NCBI GenBank assembly: GCA_944326525.1 | Contig: CALVEG010000003.1 | Span: forward strand, 1-64,000 | Reading direction: 5' to 3' | Origin: Candidatus Gastranaerophilales bacterium | Lineage (GTDB): Bacteria; Cyanobacteriota; Vampirovibrionia; Gastranaerophilales; Gastranaerophilaceae | DNA: 64,000 nucleotides | Part shown: in pieces, positions 26,160-42,876 of the stretch | How the letters are laid out: each line of letters starts with the position of its first letter | Position numbering within the stretch: position 1 is the first letter of the stretch | Notes under the pieces: model-generated | The model's database searches: none | Told to the model about the DNA's origin: nothing | What the model saw: the letters and a program-made list of their open reading frames with translations, nothing else | Translations under genes and position numbers: made by a program

Positions 26160-26234
26160 TGGCGGCGGTAAGGGGAATTGAACCCCTGTTTGGAGAATGA
26201 GAATCTGCCGTCCTAACCACTAGACGATACCGCT
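26160..26234 (-). tRNA. tRNA-Glu (anticodon CTC), chimeric after element insertion
   Basis: Minus-strand cloverleaf: acceptor AGCGGTA with TACCGCC, T-C at 8-9, D-arm GTCT...GGAC, anticodon loop TTCTCAT (CTC, Glu), T-arm AGGGG TTCAATT CCCCT, discriminator G and encoded CCA. Two pairs fail: A1-C72, and C28-C42 in the anticodon stem (GCAGA against TCTCC). The 5' half is element-derived; the native 5' half, preserved at 42792-42830, has GGAGA and would pair perfectly. Function is likely but stability may be reduced. Confidence 0.88.
26196..26234 (-). repeat. attL: left copy of the 39-nt insertion repeat
   Basis: 26196-26234 matches 42792-42830 at 38 of 39 positions; the one difference is G at 26207 versus C at 42803. 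The first 11 nt (AATGAGAATCT, the anticodon-loop region) are identical in both, and the crossover must lie there because the mismatch sorts with the element. Confidence 0.9.
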
Positions 26235-26244
26235 GTGTAACTTT

Positions 26245-26273
26245 ATTGTAGCACTGAAAAATAATTTGTTCAA
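26245..26273 (-). promoter_or_regulatory. Element-borne promoter driving the chimeric tRNA-Glu
   Basis: Minus strand: -35 TTGAAC (26268-26273), exactly 17 nt, -10 TACAAT (26245-26250), 10 nt before the tRNA 5' end. It lies inside the element, so the element supplies a replacement promoter. Confidence 0.75.
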
Positions 26274-26380
26274 GTAGTTGAAGATAATTGTGTAGTGCCG
26301 ATTTTAAACTGATTATAATTCTTTGCATTTTTACATTTTTATCCCATTTTTGCATGCTCGTTTGTTCTATGAAAATCAAA

Positions 26381-26402
26381 AAATGTTGGTAAAATGTTGG
26401 TA
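26381..26402 (+). repeat. Left integrase arm-type repeats
   Basis: Two perfect tandem copies of AAATGTTGGTA (26381-26391 and 26392-26402). The same pair, with one change, lies near the right end at 42642-42663. Oppositely oriented ACCAATTA/ACCAATTT copies follow near 26473-26490. Spacing and placement fit arm-binding sites of a tyrosine integrase. Confidence 0.65.
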
Positions 26403-26600
26403 ATTTTAATAATCAACGATGATAATTTGTAACAACAAAATTTTTGCATTTCTAAAAATTATTATAAAATATCACCAATTATTACCAATTTAAAAAATAT
26501 AATTTATAACAACTAATAATAATGTATAACTCTCTATAACCCGAAAAGCCGTATCAATTCTTGATTTGACCTTGTTTTATCTTTCTTATAATGTTTAAAT

Positions 26601-29503: not shown

Positions 29504-29932
29504 TTATCTATAACTGCCAGTTTTATTTCCATACTTATCATATGTCGTTGTAACTCCATTACTATCAGTTTTCATAGATCCAGTCTTGTTTCCGTATTTA
29601 TCGTATATTAAAGTTATACCATTACTGTCCTTTTTAAATATTTGTGTTTTGTTGCCATAGCGGTCATATTCCGTTGTTATTCCGTTTGTATCTGTTTTAT
29701 AAGTGTTTTCTTTATTTCCATATCTGTCATAATACGTTTTGATATTATTTGAATTGGTCGTGTAGTAACCCTCTTTATTTCCATACCGATCATATTTAGT
29801 TACATTTCCATTTGAATTGCTTTGATATGAACCAGTTTTATTTCCGTATTTGTCATACATATTTGTCGTTCCTGCAAAAGATGGTAGTATTATACAGGAT
29901 AAGAGTAAAAATGTGATAATAATTTTTTTCAT
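29504..29932 (-). CDS. Secreted protein of six 21-aa YD-like repeats
   Basis: A 142-aa protein with a clean signal peptide (MKKIIITFLLLSCIILPSFAG) followed by nothing but repeats. Five full units and one partial unit of 21 residues start Y-D-[KR]-Y-G-N-K and continue [TE]-G-x-Y-x-[TS]-[ND]-S-N-G-[IV]-T-T. The unit resembles the YD repeats of Rhs/teneurin proteins, which form beta-solenoid or barrel surfaces; this is inference. The 63-bp DNA repeat is visible, so copy number could vary by slippage. It lies 7 bp upstream of the anchored 571-aa protein gene and 11 bp after the four-helix membrane protein gene. Confidence 0.75.
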   Translation of the reverse strand: MKKIIITFLLLSCIILPSFAGTTNMYDKYGNKTGSYQSNSNGNVTKYDRYGNKEGYYTTNSNNIKTYYDRYGNKENTYKTDTNGITTEYDRYGNKTQIFKKDSNGITLIYDKYGNKTGSMKTDSNGVTTTYDKYGNKTGSYR

Positions 29933-33240: not shown

Positions 33241-33786
33241 TTATAAAACAAACTGTTTGTAACTGTTATCTATTTCGTCCTGCTCAATGCCTATATAACG
33301 TAAGGTTATTTTCGGGTTTGAGTGGTTAAATATCATCTGTAACATCGCAACATCTTTGAACTGTTTGTAATGGTGATAGCCAAAACTCTTTCTCATGCTG
33401 TGTGTGCCAATGTTGACAGTAATTCCTACCGCCTTGCAAGCCTCATTCAGCATTCTGTATGCCTGCGAACGGTCAAGCCGTTTTTGTTTTTGGCTTAAAA
33501 ATAACGGTTCATCATCTTCTTTATTTTTTATAAATTCCTGTATAAGTTTTTTCAATTTGTCATTTATCGGGAATTTTTTAAACTTGTTTGTTTTTTGTTC
33601 CTTTATTTCTATATGTGTTTTGTTTCTAACATTTGAAACATTCAAATTTAATATATCTGAAACTCGTAACCCGCTGTTTGTTCCAAGTACAAAAAGTAAC
33701 CTGTTTCGCTTGCTTTTCTTTGCAAGATATTCTTCAACCTGTTTTATTTGCTGTTTACTGCGTATCGGTTCTACAGTCTGTTTCAT
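33241..33786 (-). CDS. Catalytic-domain-only tyrosine recombinase
   Basis: A 181-aa protein that is a complete tyrosine-recombinase catalytic domain without a core-binding domain. R41 (TNSGLRVSDIL), K in EQKTNK, H129-x-x-R132 (GTHSMRKSFGYH), H155 (FNHSN) and the nucleophile Y164 (LRYIGI) are all present. Such short forms occur on plasmids and phages of low-GC bacteria, where they resolve multimers or invert DNA. Its target here is unknown; the inverted repeat upstream of the envelope operon and the repeats near 38017 are candidates. AGAAAGGCAGG precedes the ATG. Confidence 0.85.
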   Translation of the reverse strand: MKQTVEPIRSKQQIKQVEEYLAKKSKRNRLLFVLGTNSGLRVSDILNLNVSNVRNKTHIEIKEQKTNKFKKFPINDKLKKLIQEFIKNKEDDEPLFLSQKQKRLDRSQAYRMLNEACKAVGITVNIGTHSMRKSFGYHHYKQFKDVAMLQMIFNHSNPKITLRYIGIEQDEIDNSYKQFVL

Positions 33787-34084: not shown

Positions 34085-37000
34085 CTATATATCAATTTGG
34101 GACAGCAAAGACAAAAATTTACCTTCATTGTATGAATTATAAATTGTCAATTTGTCTATTATTTTTTTAGCAAATTTATATTCTTCTTGTTGACGTCCAC
34201 CTTGTAAAAGATTTTCTAAAATATCTTCAATTAACTTTAAATTGTTCTTTATAAAATATTCATTTATACACTCAGTTATATTAATATATTTAGCAACATT
34301 ATCGCCTTGATCAACAAGTATATTTTTTATTTTATTAAATATTTTTTCTAAATAATTTTTTGAAAAGTTTGATGGAGAAAGAAAATTTGAAATACTTTTT
34401 AATAGTCTATAATTATTAACTGGGTCATCATAAAATGTAACTAACGCATTATTTTTTAATGTAACATTATCTATAATATGAATATTTGGCTTAAAATTAT
34501 TCTCATATAATGTATTTAATAGTGATACTTTAAGCTCAACATTATAATTATTTAGATTTTCCAAATAATATTCTGCAATAACTTTTTTATCAACATTTAG
34601 TTCTAATTCATTTATCAAAGATAACAGTTTGTTTAAGTTTTTAAGTTTACTATTATCAATATTATTATCAACAAGCAATTGGTAATAATCCATTAAATTT
34701 TTATATTTATTTAAAATAATAGAATATGTATCAGATTCACCTTGAATACGTTGTTGTAAAATAGAATTATCTAGAATTAACTTTAAATAATTTTCGTCAT
34801 TTGGTAACTCTTTAATAAAATTTTGTATTCCTACACGTATTACCTGTTGAGCAAAACTGTTTTTACTACTATCATCGATATTGAATCTTATTAACTCTAC
34901 TAAAATTTTTATTAAAAGTTCATTTGATGAAATTCTAGATAATATTGTATTCATATAAGTATACAAATTTTTTCTATGATCATCATCTAAGTCATCTAAG
35001 GTTATTAGTGATATGCCCTCTGCAAATGTATCCAAATTTAACAAATTGTTTTGATATAAAATTGACATTATATTAGATAATAATTTACCTAAATTCTTTC
35101 TAGATGTTTCAGGTAATGATTCTTTATCCCAGAGCCCTTTTAAAATATTTATTATAGAACTTGAATCTTTGTTCAAATCAATATTATTAATCAATGCAAC
35201 TATCTGATATTCTGGAATGAGGGTAAGTTTATTATATTTTTTTAGAAGTTTTGCATATTCAACACCTAAATTCCCACCATCTAAAGTCACACAATTTAAA
35301 ATATAATTTATAATAATATCATCTTCAAATTTAACATCATTATTTGACAAGATATACTCAAAAATTTCAATATAAAAGTCATTTGACAATTTAGTGGTTG
35401 CTTCCTTACCCCATAAAGATTTACAAAAATTTAGTTTAAATTCTTCTATAAAATTGTTAGTAGCATATTTTGATAAAAATGTAAAAGTATTTATATAAAT
35501 TCTATAGTCCGTTTCAAGTATATCTTTTATAGTTGTACTATTTAAATTGTCTATAATGAGTTTTGCCAATTTATATAGCTGATTTGTACTTTCGACAATA
35601 GAATTAATTATTGAAATAAGCAATTTAGAAGTATAGGCTGGATTATTTTCATTATTAAGAATAATATTAGCTTGTTTCGTAATTTCAATTTCTTTAATAC
35701 TATCAATTTCAGTAAATATTTCTCCATTTATTAATGCATTTTTTATTTCTAAATCATTATTTATATTTTCTTTTAAATGAATGTATGGCAAAAAGGAAAT
35801 ATTAGGTTTTAAATAAACTCTTATATTTTTTAAAAATGAAATTATTTCATCTATATCATTTATTTCATTCCTCAAATTATTTTCATCGACGCCATTTATT
35901 AAAATATCATCAATTATAGTTGGATTAAATAGTAAATATTCTTCAAAGTTACTCCATTTCTGTTTTATAACCATCATAATAATAAATACTGGCAAATCCA
36001 ATAACAAAAATGATTTTTCTTTATCTATATTTAGGGCTAATGCGTAATAAATAGCCAAATCATTTAAAAATCTCTTAATTTGCCTAGGTGTGTTACCTTT
36101 ATATGCATAAAACAATATACTTTTAACTTGGGAAATCTCTCTCGGGGTCAATGTTTCAGAAATGCTTAATTTATTTAATTGTTTTTCAATAAATGCATCC
36201 CTGTCTTCTTCTTTTAAAATAGGAATTCTTAAATATGTATTAAATAATTTATCAAAAAATTCTTGTTCACAGTTTATTACATCATCTTGTAAATTATATT
36301 TCTGTGCTATATAATTTTTAATAGCTTTATCATCACAAGGTATTATGTAAAAACAATTTTCTCTATCCATAAAAGTTTTTATTGTAGATAATGTTTCATA
36401 GGCTAGTTCAGGCTCACAACGATCTAAATTATCAAATACTATAACAGTTTTTTTATTTATCTTTTTAATAATATCTTTATAAATTTTTTCAAATTGTTCA
36501 GGGGAAAAGACAGGTTTACATGTATAGCTTTTTAACTTTCGTCTTAAAATAATTGTTTCGCAAAGTTTTCTAAGCTCCCCTTCAAAAATTTTAGCTAGAA
36601 TTAATGGGGCTGATACCATTGCAAAACTAGCATAGAAAAATGGGCTAATCCAATCTATAAATATGTTAAACTTAGTAAAATACAATCCTAATTTTATAAC
36701 ACAATGATTAGCAAGTAAAACTAAAAATAAAATTAACAATATTCTACAAGCTATTTTAACAAAATTTATAATACTTTTACAAATTTCATCAAATTTTAAT
36801 TTTACTTCATCTGTAATTTCTTCATCGCAATATAATATTTGTTCAAGCGATTGTTTTTTATCATTTTTATAGCCATCCTTAAATACAGAGTTTGTTTTCA
36901 TCCTTAGTTGATTATCTATATCGAATAAGATACTTCTAGATAGAGGATGTCCTATATATTTCCATACATCAATATACAAATATTCGTAATTATCATTATT

Positions 37001-37207
37001 TAATAAATGTTTCTTAACTTCATTTATTATAAAACTCTTACCACTACCCCAACTACCAAATAAGCCAATAGTAAATGCTGATTTTGACAATTCTGTTTTA
37101 TTTATACAATTAAATATGGTTTGAGCTATATTAGTATGAATTCCAAAACTATCTTCTTCTTCTTGGTTATTTGAATCAAATAGAAATAAATCTTTTTCGA
37201 CTGGCAT
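34085..37207 (-). CDS. KAP-family P-loop NTPase with membrane insert
   Basis: A 1040-aa predicted membrane-bound NTPase. Walker A GSWGSGKS is at 51-58. Two membrane helices lie between Walker A and B (about 149-175 and 186-208), the hallmark of KAP NTPases. Walker B VIVFDNLDRCEPE is at 255-267, and a helical region ends the ATPase part (NTPRQIKRFLNDLAIYYAL near 375). The remaining ~600 residues are Asn/Leu-rich helical repeats that could be a sensor. KAP NTPases occur in phage-defence islands, so an anti-phage role is likely but inferred. AAGGAT precedes the ATG. The sequence is extremely AT-rich. Confidence 0.85.
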   Translation of the reverse strand: MPVEKDLFLFDSNNQEEEDSFGIHTNIAQTIFNCINKTELSKSAFTIGLFGSWGSGKSFIINEVKKHLLNNDNYEYLYIDVWKYIGHPLSRSILFDIDNQLRMKTNSVFKDGYKNDKKQSLEQILYCDEEITDEVKLKFDEICKSIINFVKIACRILLILFLVLLANHCVIKLGLYFTKFNIFIDWISPFFYASFAMVSAPLILAKIFEGELRKLCETIILRRKLKSYTCKPVFSPEQFEKIYKDIIKKINKKTVIVFDNLDRCEPELAYETLSTIKTFMDRENCFYIIPCDDKAIKNYIAQKYNLQDDVINCEQEFFDKLFNTYLRIPILKEEDRDAFIEKQLNKLSISETLTPREISQVKSILFYAYKGNTPRQIKRFLNDLAIYYALALNIDKEKSFLLLDLPVFIIMMVIKQKWSNFEEYLLFNPTIIDDILINGVDENNLRNEINDIDEIISFLKNIRVYLKPNISFLPYIHLKENINNDLEIKNALINGEIFTEIDSIKEIEITKQANIILNNENNPAYTSKLLISIINSIVESTNQLYKLAKLIIDNLNSTTIKDILETDYRIYINTFTFLSKYATNNFIEEFKLNFCKSLWGKEATTKLSNDFYIEIFEYILSNNDVKFEDDIIINYILNCVTLDGGNLGVEYAKLLKKYNKLTLIPEYQIVALINNIDLNKDSSSIINILKGLWDKESLPETSRKNLGKLLSNIMSILYQNNLLNLDTFAEGISLITLDDLDDDHRKNLYTYMNTILSRISSNELLIKILVELIRFNIDDSSKNSFAQQVIRVGIQNFIKELPNDENYLKLILDNSILQQRIQGESDTYSIILNKYKNLMDYYQLLVDNNIDNSKLKNLNKLLSLINELELNVDKKVIAEYYLENLNNYNVELKVSLLNTLYENNFKPNIHIIDNVTLKNNALVTFYDDPVNNYRLLKSISNFLSPSNFSKNYLEKIFNKIKNILVDQGDNVAKYINITECINEYFIKNNLKLIEDILENLLQGGRQQEEYKFAKKIIDKLTIYNSYNEGKFLSLLSQIDI

Positions 37208-37333: not shown

Positions 37334-37639
37334 CTATGCTACTTCAAGCTCATAGCCTAATTCTTGAAATATTTTTGCTATAGTTGAGAATTTTGGTTCT
37401 TTTTCACTTTTAAACAAACTGTATAAATGACTTCTTGACATTCCAACTTTTTTAGCAAAACCTGATACAGTGTCTTTTGCTTTTATGACAATTTCTAATG
37501 CACGATAAAAAGAATTAAAATCACCATCTTCCAAATAATCTTTTAAACTTGCATTTAGAAACAGTTTAATTTCTTCATCTGATTTTAAATCAGTAACTAT
37601 ATAATTTTCTAAATCTATTGTATGTTTTAATTCTTTCAT
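37334..37639 (-). CDS. HigA-like helix-turn-helix antitoxin
   Basis: A 101-aa antitoxin with an XRE-type helix-turn-helix (AKKVGMSRSHLYSLFKSE...FSTIAKIFQELGYE, about 60-95). The N-terminal part (LKSDEEIKLFLNASLKDYLEDGDFNSFYRALEIVIKAK) is the usual start of 'addiction module antidote' proteins that pair with RelE/HigB-type toxins. ATG at 37639 is chosen because GGAGAAAG lies 6 nt before it and it overlaps the toxin stop as ATGA; the ATG 15 nt upstream lacks a ribosome site. It should neutralise the toxin and repress the promoter. Confidence 0.88.
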   Translation of the reverse strand: MKELKHTIDLENYIVTDLKSDEEIKLFLNASLKDYLEDGDFNSFYRALEIVIKAKDTVSGFAKKVGMSRSHLYSLFKSEKEPKFSTIAKIFQELGYELEVA

Positions 37640-37959
37640 TGTAACTTTCTCCATTCTTGAAGTATATTTTTGGCTTTTTCTATATCTTTTTGTTGAGTAG
37701 ATTTGTCTCCGCCATTAATCAATAATACAATTACATTATCTATTTCTGTATAATAAATTCTATAGCCTGCTCCAAACTTAAATCGTAATTCGGAGATTTC
37801 ATTATCTATTTTTTTATGGTCACCAAAATTGTTTTCTAAAAGTCTTATTAATCTGCTTTGTATTCGGGCTTTTGTTGTTTTGTCAAGTGAATCTAGCCAT
37901 TCTATGAATGGTACTTTTTCATTTTCAAGTGCTGCAATTTTGACAATTCTTTGTTCCAT
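37636..37959 (-). CDS. RelE/HigB-type toxin (phage Gp49-like)
   Basis: A 107-aa putative mRNA interferase of the RelE superfamily, 'addiction module killer' type. Family pattern: FIEWLDSLDKTTKARIQSRLIRL...GDHKKI...ISELRFKFGAGYRIYY, then VLLINGGDKSTQQKDIEKA. The start at ATG 37959 gives the family length and lies 6 nt after a -10 hexamer; an upstream TTG would place part of the promoter in the reading frame. Toxin precedes antitoxin, as in higBA operons. It probably stabilises the island. Confidence 0.88.
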   Translation of the reverse strand: MEQRIVKIAALENEKVPFIEWLDSLDKTTKARIQSRLIRLLENNFGDHKKIDNEISELRFKFGAGYRIYYTEIDNVIVLLINGGDKSTQQKDIEKAKNILQEWRKLQ

Positions 37960-37965
37960 ATTTAT

Positions 37966-37994
37966 AGTGTACTCTATAGCAGACAATTTGTCAA
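37966..37994 (-). promoter_or_regulatory. Leaderless-type promoter of the toxin-antitoxin operon
   Basis: Minus strand: consensus -35 TTGACA (37989-37994), 17 nt, -10 TACACT (37966-37971), then 6 nt to the toxin ATG. There is no ribosome site. Confidence 0.7.
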
Positions 37995-38905: not shown

Positions 38906-39712
38906 CTAAGTTCTTCTTTCAATCTGTCGTGCATAATTTAATTTACCTTGCAAAACTAATTTTTCTTGTTCTGATAGTATCGGTTTTGCCTTCAAGTAAT
39001 TTATTGAACGCCGTAGTTTATAATCAACACTCAATCTGCCTTTAGAATTTATGTGAATATTCATAATACGTTTTCTTTTTCCGTAAATCCTAATTTTACG
39101 ATAGTTTAGTTTTAATCCTGCTTTTAGTAATTCTTTTTGTACTGTTGAAATTACAGTTACTGGATTTTGTATATTACCTGAAATCACCATGTCATCTGCG
39201 TAAAGTGTCATATTATATCCTAAATCTTGACAGTAATTATAAATCTTATCAAATACAGATTTACAAGCCCAAAAACTCACGATATTACTTGTTGGCACGC
39301 CAAGAGGCAGAGTATCTTTATACGTTATCAGCTTAAGTATTATTTCTGCTGTGTTTTTATTTAACTGGCAATCATCTGTTAAAAATTTAAACACCCGTTC
39401 TTTACTTACACTTCCATAAAAATTTTTTACGTCCAAAACAACTGCATTACGAGAGTTTTTATGAACATTTATCAGATCTATAATCCTACATTTTTTATAT
39501 CCTGTATATAAATAATCCGGTCTTGGTAAATATAGTTGAAAAACTTTATTAATCATTTTTTGAACAGTTTTAAGTTCTTCATCAGGTTTGTGAAATACTC
39601 GTTTTTTGCCTTGAGTTTTTTGTATAGCCGATTTGTAATGTATTGCAATATTTTCTGTTAAATTTTCAAACATTATTGCAATACCTTGCAGTTTATATTG
39701 AAAAATTTGCAT
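38906..39712 (-). CDS. Retron-like reverse transcriptase
   Basis: A 268-aa reverse transcriptase. Motif A Asp D94 lies in VVLDVKNFYGSV, the LPLGVPTSN block (RT4) at 135-143, and the catalytic YADD at 171-174 in LYADDMVISG; the thumb region reads GLKLNYRKIRIYGKRKRIMNIHINSKG. The layout, including a thumb aligned to the retron R-Q-x-V-T-G-L-x-V-N block, is retron-like, but the diagnostic VTG is IMN (216-218). The start is chosen for the AAAGGA 8 nt upstream; the frame stays open further upstream through a structured region that is more likely RNA. The partner would be the non-coding RNA at 39729-39869. Defence is the usual retron role; no effector is identified. Confidence 0.85.
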   Translation of the reverse strand: MQIFQYKLQGIAIMFENLTENIAIHYKSAIQKTQGKKRVFHKPDEELKTVQKMINKVFQLYLPRPDYLYTGYKKCRIIDLINVHKNSRNAVVLDVKNFYGSVSKERVFKFLTDDCQLNKNTAEIILKLITYKDTLPLGVPTSNIVSFWACKSVFDKIYNYCQDLGYNMTLYADDMVISGNIQNPVTVISTVQKELLKAGLKLNYRKIRIYGKRKRIMNIHINSKGRLSVDYKLRRSINYLKAKPILSEQEKLVLQGKLNYARQIERRT

Positions 39713-39728
39713 ATTAAAAATCCTTTCT

Positions 39729-39869
39729 GTTTTTATTTTTCTTTTCGTAATGTTTCCAAGAGCAAGGGGCTTTAACGGGTATATCAGTCTTGGTACAATA
39801 ACGACTGTGCAGGAGTACCCTAGCCCCTGTCTTGCATTGGTGTGTAAGCACCAATCCAAAAGTAAAAAC
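39729..39869 (-). ncRNA. Candidate retron-type msr-msd RNA upstream of the RT
   Basis: Minus strand, 5' to 3': an outer arm GTTTTTA (39863-39869) with CTTTT (39858-39862); two G residues; a 7-bp hairpin with 6-nt loop (39836-39855); then without a gap a 74-nt bulged hairpin (39762-39835) of four 5-bp helices (GCAAG, GGGCT, GGGTA and CAGTC type). The second outer arm AAAAG (39741-39745) and TAAAAAC (39729-39735) pairs the first with a 5-nt bulge, giving a 12-bp enclosing stem. Outer a1/a2-like stem, short hairpin, long hairpin, then RT is the retron plan. It is GC-rich against a very AT-rich background. Confidence 0.6.
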
Positions 39870-39999
39870 AACCTTTTAACATTAATTGCACTGTATACTG
39901 CATACGGTATACATACACATGTTACATTTTTTTATTTACTTTTTTTGATTACAGTTTAATGCCTGTAATAGTACCATTTTCCCTTGCATTTTAGTTAGT

Positions 40000-41325: not shown

Positions 41326-42540
41326 TTAATAATACTGTTGATTTATAAGGTTGTTAGCCGTCTTGATAATATCTACAACTTCTGAATCTACATTTTTTAC
41401 ATTTTGTAACATTCCTAATAAATAAAATCTTCTTTTAGATCGTAACTCATCAGGATCTGTAAATTTTTTATTCAAGTCACGAACTGAGGCTTCTATATTT
41501 TTAGCTTCACGTTTTTTACCATTTTTTTTATATGTTAACATTGAAAGCAATTTAAATATTCGTCTACAATTTTCACATTTTCTAATATTTTTGTTTGTAG
41601 GATCACATAGTTCACACGTTGCATTAATTGTTTTGAATGATATATCATTTGCGATACGAAAAATCTCTGTTGCAATAATTTTATAATTAGCAAAATCCGT
41701 AGTATATCGTTGTTTAGGTAAATCAAGTACTTTTTTAAATTTTTTTTTGGAGTTGTTTAGTTCATTTTCCTTATTTAAGTAGTTTTGTTCTGATTCATTA
41801 CCATTTATATCTTTAGCAATTTCTTCAAGTTTATAAACTCTGCCATAAACTACAGCTTTAATTTTGTTTAACACTCTTGATACGCCACAAATACCACTGT
41901 TTATGTAATCATTATCGATCATCAACATAACTTGAGCGAAATCTTCTTGCGTTGGTCTACCACGCTTAGACTTGTTATCTATAACAGTTTTACTTGTATT
42001 AAATAAAGATATCCGTCCTGTTATTTCATTTGCGTATGCTCTTGTTTCTTTTATTTCTTTATTATACTGTTTCAGATCGCCTATGAATAAAATTTTAAAC
42101 AAAATATTTTTATTTTGATAATTTCGATCATAAATTACAATATATTTATTACTTATCACAAAATCACAAAGTGACTTAATCATTTCATGTTTTTCGGCAT
42201 AGATCGAGCTATCTAAAATTATATTCTGTAGATATTTGGAAGAAAAACCATTTAAATAAAAAAATACATTAGAAATATAATAAATAATTTTATTAATCAA
42301 ATCAAAATGTAATATATACTCAGGTTTTATAAATTGTCCTAATAAATTTATAGAAACTAAATCCATAAAATCAATAGGTTTGCTATGATTAATAGTTTGT
42401 TTATATGCTTTTAAATTATTTTTACGATCCTCTAGAATATTAAAAATTTCATTGAGTTTAAATTCTTCATAATGTTTTAATAAGTATGAACAAAATTTTA
42501 TATAGTTATATTGTTGATTATTCAATCTTGCTTTTGACAT
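41326..42540 (-). CDS. 404-aa island protein with a four-Cys cluster, function unknown
   Basis: A 404-aa, Lys/Asn-rich soluble protein. The N-terminal half is helical; a basic K-R-G-R-P motif (AT-hook-like) near residue 193 precedes a helix-turn-helix-like stretch (QEDFAQVMLMIDNDYINSGICGVSRVLNKI). A C-E-L-C...C-E-N-C cluster near 315-335 probably binds zinc. These hint at DNA binding, for example a replication or regulatory protein, but no family is recognised. There is no ribosome site; an extended -10 (TGGTATTAT) ends 6 nt before the ATG. It is the gene nearest the right end of the island. Confidence 0.6.
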   Translation of the reverse strand: MSKARLNNQQYNYIKFCSYLLKHYEEFKLNEIFNILEDRKNNLKAYKQTINHSKPIDFMDLVSINLLGQFIKPEYILHFDLINKIIYYISNVFFYLNGFSSKYLQNIILDSSIYAEKHEMIKSLCDFVISNKYIVIYDRNYQNKNILFKILFIGDLKQYNKEIKETRAYANEITGRISLFNTSKTVIDNKSKRGRPTQEDFAQVMLMIDNDYINSGICGVSRVLNKIKAVVYGRVYKLEEIAKDINGNESEQNYLNKENELNNSKKKFKKVLDLPKQRYTTDFANYKIIATEIFRIANDISFKTINATCELCDPTNKNIRKCENCRRIFKLLSMLTYKKNGKKREAKNIEASVRDLNKKFTDPDELRSKRRFYLLGMLQNVKNVDSEVVDIIKTANNLINQQYY

Positions 42541-42575: not shown

Positions 42576-42641
42576 GTATGTAATATTTATTATGATATTA
42601 GCTCTATATTATAGACTATATAATTCACTTTCATCCACCAA

Positions 42642-42663
42642 AAATGTTGGCAAAATGTTGGTA
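42642..42663 (+). repeat. Right integrase arm-type repeats
   Basis: AAATGTTGGCA (42642-42652) and AAATGTTGGTA (42653-42663), the same orientation and 11-bp period as at 26381-26402; a decayed third copy follows. Confidence 0.65.
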
Positions 42664-42791
42664 AAAATGCTGAAAATGTATAAAAAAACATGAAAAAAGG
42701 TAACATTTGCATTTCTATAAAATTAAGTAATAATAAGCATTTCAGTATCATGCTCTTTCATTAATTGTTACCTGTTGTTGCGGTAAAGAAT

Positions 42792-42830
42792 AATGAGAAT
42801 CTCCCGTCCTAACCACTAGACGATACCGCT
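42792..42830 (-). pseudogene. attR: stranded 5' half of the original tRNA-Glu
   Basis: Exact 5' half of a tRNA-Glu from position 1 through the anticodon loop, with no 3' half. Its anticodon-stem strand GGAGA pairs perfectly with TCTCC of the 3' half now at 26160 onward, so this is the native half displaced by the element. Its native promoter lies just upstream. Confidence 0.88.
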
Positions 42831-42847
42831 ATTCATATTACATGCGT

Positions 42848-42876
42848 ATTTTAATCCTTATATGTTAGAATTGCAA
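42848..42876 (-). promoter_or_regulatory. Original tRNA-Glu promoter, now orphaned
   Basis: Minus strand: -35 TTGCAA (42871-42876), 17 nt, -10 TAAAAT (42848-42853), 17 nt before the tRNA-half. It now reads into the island's right end. Confidence 0.55.

Follow-up and report, generated by a model that had tools for sequence, protein, structure and literature searches.

The island described here very probably entered the tRNA-Glu(CTC) gene from its 5' side and exchanged the promoter and 5' half of that gene for host-type copies that it had probably captured. It lies within the window, the whole 64,000-nucleotide stretch of Gastranaerophilales DNA that was analysed. According to the proposed mechanism, the anticodon arm of the tRNA-Glu(CTC) gene would have been the site of recombination for a 16.6-kb island with a lambda-like tyrosine integrase, in the reverse of the usual orientation. 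The attP of the island would carry both a promoter and the 5' half of tRNA-Glu. In the integrated state, the tRNA gene would consist of the host 3' half, the element 5' half and the element promoter, and the host 5' half and promoter would be displaced to attR, 16.6 kb away. The element promoter would be a copy of the tRNA-Glu(CTC) type native to other genera of the family, probably captured.

The island is bounded by a direct repeat that corresponds to the 5' half of the tRNA (Table 1). The two copies are identical at 38 of 39 positions (97%), with one mismatch, and their spacing of 16,596 nucleotides gives the size of the island. For the 21-nt core of the repeat, 0 occurrences are expected by chance. 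The integrase gene starts 367 nucleotides further into the island than the end of the repeat copy in the whole tRNA gene, next to which it lies. It is intact, and the HxxR motif (H303-R306) and Tyr-338 are present. Lambda-like integrases have arm-type sites, and by analogy the repeated sequence TGTTGGTAA is read as a candidate site of this kind. It occurs three times in the 64 kb, twice at the left end of the island and once at the right end, with no copy outside the island ends; the right end contains an additional copy with one mismatch. In the related island of a genome of the same genus, G011, TGTTGGTAA is found in the same places. The island is presumably still able to move.

Table 1. Positions in the window of the tRNA gene, the promoters and the features of the island
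Feature	Position	Strand	Basis
Hybrid tRNA-Glu(CTC), with a chromosomal 3' part and an element-derived 5' part	26160..26234	-	ARAGORN, Rfam; comparison of G005, G011 and attR
attL core (tRNA 5' half, positions 1-39)	26196..26234	-	39-nt direct repeat
Putative element-side promoter of the tRNA gene	26245..26273	-	Sequence and homologues at tRNA-Glu(CTC) genes of other genera
Element end, overlapping the -35 and extending upstream of it	26269..26320	-	Comparison, family genomes
Candidate arm-type integrase sites, left end (two TGTTGGTAA, 11 bp apart)	26379..26403	+	Repeat D12
Tyrosine integrase, 360 aa	26601..27683	+	Pfam PF00589, 4.7e-32; PHROG 1, 1.2e-67
ORF of 404 aa, the first in the island downstream of attR	41326..42540	-	23% identical to the 346-aa counterpart in G011
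Candidate arm-type integrase sites, right end	42640..42664	+	Repeat search
Terminator-like hairpin, 8-bp closing stem followed by a U-run	42693..42773	-	Downstream of the displaced promoter
attR core (displaced host tRNA 5' half, G28)	42792..42830	-	Repeat and comparison
Displaced ancestral tRNA-Glu promoter, TTGCAA-17-TAAAAT	42848..42876	-	Equals the G005 empty-site promoter

The ends of the island repeat part of a tRNA, a tyrosine integrase is carried on board and an empty site is present in a relative, as in a tRNA-targeting integrative island. The 5' fragment of the tRNA has been displaced along with the ancestral promoter, and a new promoter is situated on the element side, as in integration from the 5' side ("reversed" integration). 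A conventional integration at the 3' side of the tRNA was rejected because the tRNA fragment that was moved away is the 5' part and the gene has not kept its original promoter.

A family search with the integrase gave 30 loci including the window (L017-L046), and ARAGORN detected a tRNA at four of them: the window, L035 and L036 (both tRNA-Glu, with the integrase on its 3' side) and L042 (tRNA-Gln). At L035 and L036, no second copy of the 3' part of the tRNA was found in the stretches examined, and these two loci were therefore set aside. Among viral contigs, the integrase search revealed one relative (37%), and there were 0 matches each for the element-end pattern and the promoter-tRNA pattern.

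The empty site was identified within a set of 14 genomes of the same genus, the window's own included. G005 has a single intact tRNA-Glu(CTC) gene at the point where the two flanks of the window, left and right, come together, and the promoter directly upstream of the whole tRNA is TTGCAA-17-TAAAAT. The same promoter is present in G004 and G006 and at the attR sites of the window and G011. A similar TTGC-type promoter, as judged by eye, occurs in G003, G007, G009, G010 and G012. Since the promoter of G005, G004 and G006 is carried at both attR sites, the attR promoter is ancestral and the attL promoter element-borne. The island of G011 is inserted in the same tRNA gene, with a near-identical attL and right end. 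Its attL promoter is TTGAAC-17-TATAAT, and the last 40 nucleotides match the window at 37 positions; the attL contig of G011 ends about 215 nucleotides inside the island, and the G011 integrase was not recovered. The sequence at and upstream of the attL promoter is common to the island end of G011 and absent from the empty site of G005. The sequence-only reading had placed the promoter inside the element, on the element side of attL, and this is where the comparison puts it: the repeat marks the ends, the integrase lies further in, the G011 end is alike and G005 is unlike, and the ancestral promoter, as in G005, is now at attR.

The only mismatch of the repeat is at tRNA position 28, which is a C at attL and a G at attR. 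In the hybrid tRNA, C28 is mispaired with C42 of the host 3' half; the empty-site gene has G28-C42. Because C28 mispairs with the host C42 and the G28 of attR would pair, the 5' half at attL is foreign to at least position 28. From the sequences, this appears to place the crossover between tRNA positions 29 and 39, in the anticodon loop and its edges (anticodon arm). Except at position 28, the 5' half in the window, unlike that of G011, matches the 5' half of the host, and C28 alone could be a later mutation. The hybrid tRNA of G011 contains the same C28-C42 mispair as well as C6-A67. The predicted folding energies of the tRNAs are -28.3 kcal/mol for G005, -22.2 kcal/mol for the window and -22.0 kcal/mol for G011. 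By eye, the 5' half of the G011 tRNA has the sequence of native 5' halves in genus g7 (G056, G200 and G220), and that of the window is identical to the 5' half in G182 of genus g34.

To trace the promoter, a pattern built from the -10 region and the tRNA start was run on 239 family genomes. It was found in 31 of these, representing 12 of 41 genera, and the reversed-pattern control gave 0. The 19-nt stretch that covers the -35 and the spacer was not used by the pattern, and it matches the window at 13 or more positions in 16 of 29 loci; among 40 other tRNA upstream regions of the genome the highest count is 11, and a count of 13 is attained at 0.3% of 20,000 random positions. TTG stands at the place of the -35 in 25 of 30 loci. 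The five loci without it, as well as several whose identity is low, may have been picked up by the pattern by chance. A comparison upstream of tRNA-Glu(CTC) included matches from 141 of the 239 family genomes, and the promoter columns were counted on 20 loci hand-picked from the 30. Across several genera, tRNA-Glu(CTC) genes have retained the -35, the -10 and their spacing from the tRNA, and part of the spacer and the region far upstream vary. The nearest promoter without the element end is that of G056 (36 of 40 positions). In the 30 promoter-locus stretches, tblastn (E 0.01) detected no integrase relatives beyond the window. In G123, an integrase relative lies on the 3' side of the tRNA at a distance of about 1.2 kb.

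As judged from these alignments, the promoter type is native to hosts of several genera (g7, g11, g17, g35, g38 and others), and the element probably captured the promoter from such a host and did not invent it. The sequence-only reading had counted the same promoter in island-free relatives against an element-supplied one. Homologous promoters are indeed present in island-free G002 and G008 and in other genera; G005 lacks one. Since they occur in island-free hosts, they point to capture of a host promoter, a direction that we infer, and the element-side location stands. G002 and G008 belong to the same genus as the window, and their promoters match at 29 and 28 of 40 positions. Each is preceded by about 95 nucleotides, found at length in these two genomes only, that separate the tRNA from the conserved right flank, so that the promoter stretch is replaced. 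The promoter of G002 and G008 represents an old host variant or else a scar.

In place of a single capture, the promoter and 5' half may have been exchanged repeatedly between hosts by elements of this kind, with the promoters of G002, G008, G064 and G109 as scars of lost islands. We regard this as a tentative possibility. Of 383 family genomes, only four, belonging to three genera, contain the 32-nt core of the element end, CGGCACTACACAATTATCTTCAACTACTTGAA (26269-26300): that of the window, G011, G064 and G109. In each of the four, the core is joined to the tRNA promoter. The replaced promoter stretch in G002 and G008, and the 5' halves of G011 and the window that equal those of genus g7 and of G182, also agree with such exchange. 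In G064 and G109, about 160-170 nucleotides around the promoter and tRNA match attL of the window, and only this end is present. An integrated copy of the island in G064 was not indicated, with no tyrosine integrase among seven proteins scanned near the tRNA; G109 contains an ORF with a recombinase domain, within about 3.1 kb of sequence absent from G056. However, an island remnant with arm sites was not found in G064 or G109, and many genera have the promoter type without any sign of an island, so that vertical descent with a single capture fits too. That the island lineage shuttles tRNA promoters and 5' halves between genera is rather unlikely.

The displaced promoter is directed through the half tRNA into the island, towards the first ORF, for which no match was obtained in Pfam, NCBIfam, PADLOC or PHROG. 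The hairpin downstream of this promoter has a folding energy of -14 kcal/mol (z -1.83; 9 of 200 shuffles were as good) and is conserved at attR of G011; it may stop transcription from the displaced promoter. The element promoter could also serve the element itself, reading in the circular form through the 5' half to this ORF, a role that the host promoter would take over in the integrated form. Both promoters point towards the first ORF, and the ORFs at this place in the two islands belong to one family, but the terminator-like hairpin, weak as it is by its z score, lies between, and we consider such a function unlikely.

The promoter itself lies just outside the tRNA 5' end, where the sequence-only reading had seen TTGAAC-17-TACAAT. 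On the minus strand, the -35 hexamer TTGAAC (26273..26268) is separated by a 17-nt spacer from the -10 hexamer TACAAT (26250..26245), which ends 10 nucleotides from the 5' end of tRNA-Glu(CTC) at 26234. A TG before TACAAT forms an extended -10. The exact pair with a spacer of 15-19 nucleotides occurs once in the window, with 0.18 occurrences expected from shuffles, and it was present at least once in 18 of 100 shuffled windows. TTGAAC-17-TACAAT scores 9 of 12 against the consensus, and the surrounding 1 kb contains six sites with this score where 4.6 are expected. Of 4000 random 80-mers taken from the window, 241 (6.0%) contain an equally good site at the same distance from the end; among 40 other tRNA genes of the genome, 18 have one. 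Since the DNA here is AT-rich and 6.0% of random sites are equally good, the case for a promoter must rest on comparison; the consensus match alone is weak evidence and the comparison is strong. A chance match of the hexamers in AT-rich DNA, with the tRNA silent or read from elsewhere, gains from that frequency among random positions. It is very unlikely given that the -35, the -10 and the distance to the tRNA are kept at the tRNA-Glu(CTC) of several genera. By this reasoning, the element-side promoter would drive the hybrid tRNA, with a leader of about 3-4 nucleotides only.

It is highly improbable that the attL promoter is the host's own and attR is foreign DNA, as in a usual 3'-side insertion that was misread: its homologues are native in other genera and present in island-free G002 and G008, but it is the other promoter that is found both at the empty site of G005 and in the flank beyond attR, where it is continuous with the chromosomal flank on the right, the repeat is the 5' and not the 3' half of the tRNA, and the promoter side of attL is shared with the island end of G011, so that the comparison with G005 and G011 refutes this reading unless the G005 assembly is wrong there.

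Several other ORFs were observed in the island. A reverse transcriptase at 38906-39871 (minus strand) has a retron type VI reverse transcriptase as its best PADLOC match (1.4e-51), which suggests a retron-like defence gene carried as cargo. A KAP NTPase of 1040 residues at 34085-37207 (minus strand) is weakly similar to QatA and PifA and is possibly defence cargo as well. Two small addiction-module-like ORFs, an HI1420-type antidote and a Gp49/RelE-like toxin, are located at 37334-37986 (minus strand). The island also contains a second, short tyrosine recombinase of 181 residues at 33241-33786 (minus strand) with a nearly whole catalytic domain; a recombinase-domain ORF of similar size (179 residues) is found near the tRNA-Glu of G109 (L111:16555-17094). 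A repeat with a 63-nt period at 29522-29860 is situated inside the minus-strand ORF 29504-29932.

The sequence-only reading had also held that the promoter is needed for survival of the host. This is not borne out: the genome also carries tRNA-Glu(TTC) with its own promoter, TTGACA-17-TAGAAT, and two of the 14 genomes of the genus lack the CTC gene. tRNA-Glu(TTC) can read GAG by wobble. In G001 and G013, both 99% complete, tRNA-Glu(CTC) was not found by BLAST, nor by a pattern with up to three mismatches that found the gene in four of nine genomes tried. The site between the genes for thioredoxin reductase and a pilT-like protein (L100 and L103) is without tRNA-Glu(CTC) in both genomes, and these neighbours are about 50 nucleotides apart in G001 and about 380 in G013. 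Since G001 and G013 are without the gene, these species at least can do without tRNA-Glu(CTC). The promoter probably helps to keep the tRNA gene working, and survival of the host is probably independent of it.

Other arrangements were noted around this gene. In one part of the genus, represented by L099, L101, L102 and L104, the tRNA-Glu is inverted relative to thioredoxin reductase when compared with the window. In G008, a tandem repeat that includes the tRNA 3' end extends downstream of tRNA-Glu to the contig end (L047:18515-18782). In G069, the tRNA-Glu starts about 10 nucleotides past the stop codon of thioredoxin reductase (L052:3785-3880), and its promoter is likely to lie inside the thioredoxin reductase gene.

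Integration at the 5' side with a promoter supplied by the element is rare but already known, and the present island is an unusually readable case. In a previously reported 5'-side insertion into a target gene, the element is said to supply the 5' part and hence the promoter side. Both that element and the present one enter at the 5' side; the case described here differs in being a Gastranaerophilales tRNA-Glu(CTC) island with a promoter that is traceable to other genera. Our search of a limited literature collection returned no paper on the present island.

Insertion into the 5'-distal part of tRNA genes is described as considerably rarer in a paper on archaeal elements (PMC6563490), in agreement with the view of the sequence-only reading that 5'-side entry is less common than 3'-side entry. 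CalSub-E1 and the other elements presented there likewise recombine with the 5'-distal part of a tRNA gene; they are archaeal, and the likeness described concerns the insertion side. A bacterial tRNA keeps its original promoter with very few exceptions, according to another paper (PMC8371274). Classical tRNA islands, as outlined in the Islander paper (PMC4383910), share the tyrosine integrase, the crossover within a tRNA gene, and the whole gene at one end with a displaced fragment at the other. They restore the 3' part and leave the promoter, whereas the present island replaces the 5' part and the promoter. In dusA islands, the 5' end of the target gene is likewise replaced by element sequence, and putative -10 and -35 regions are reported before and after integration (PMC4482086). 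They differ in their protein-coding target and in the family of their integrase.

For nearly all elements that target a tRNA, the promoter problem does not arise, because they enter at the 3' side. The present case shows the two results of entry at the 5' side, a promoter brought in and a promoter pushed out, together with a relative that has the empty site. The island indicates that an element can carry a host-type promoter and half a gene between genera, turning a gene of translation into a chimera with a mispaired stem. If the lineage does act as a shuttle, each integration would swap the promoter and front half of the host tRNA-Glu and would produce chimeric tRNAs with mispaired stems, and loss of the island could leave a foreign promoter fixed, possibly as in G002 and G008, G064 and G109. 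The locus offers a natural test of how much change a redundant tRNA can bear and of whether integration alters its expression.
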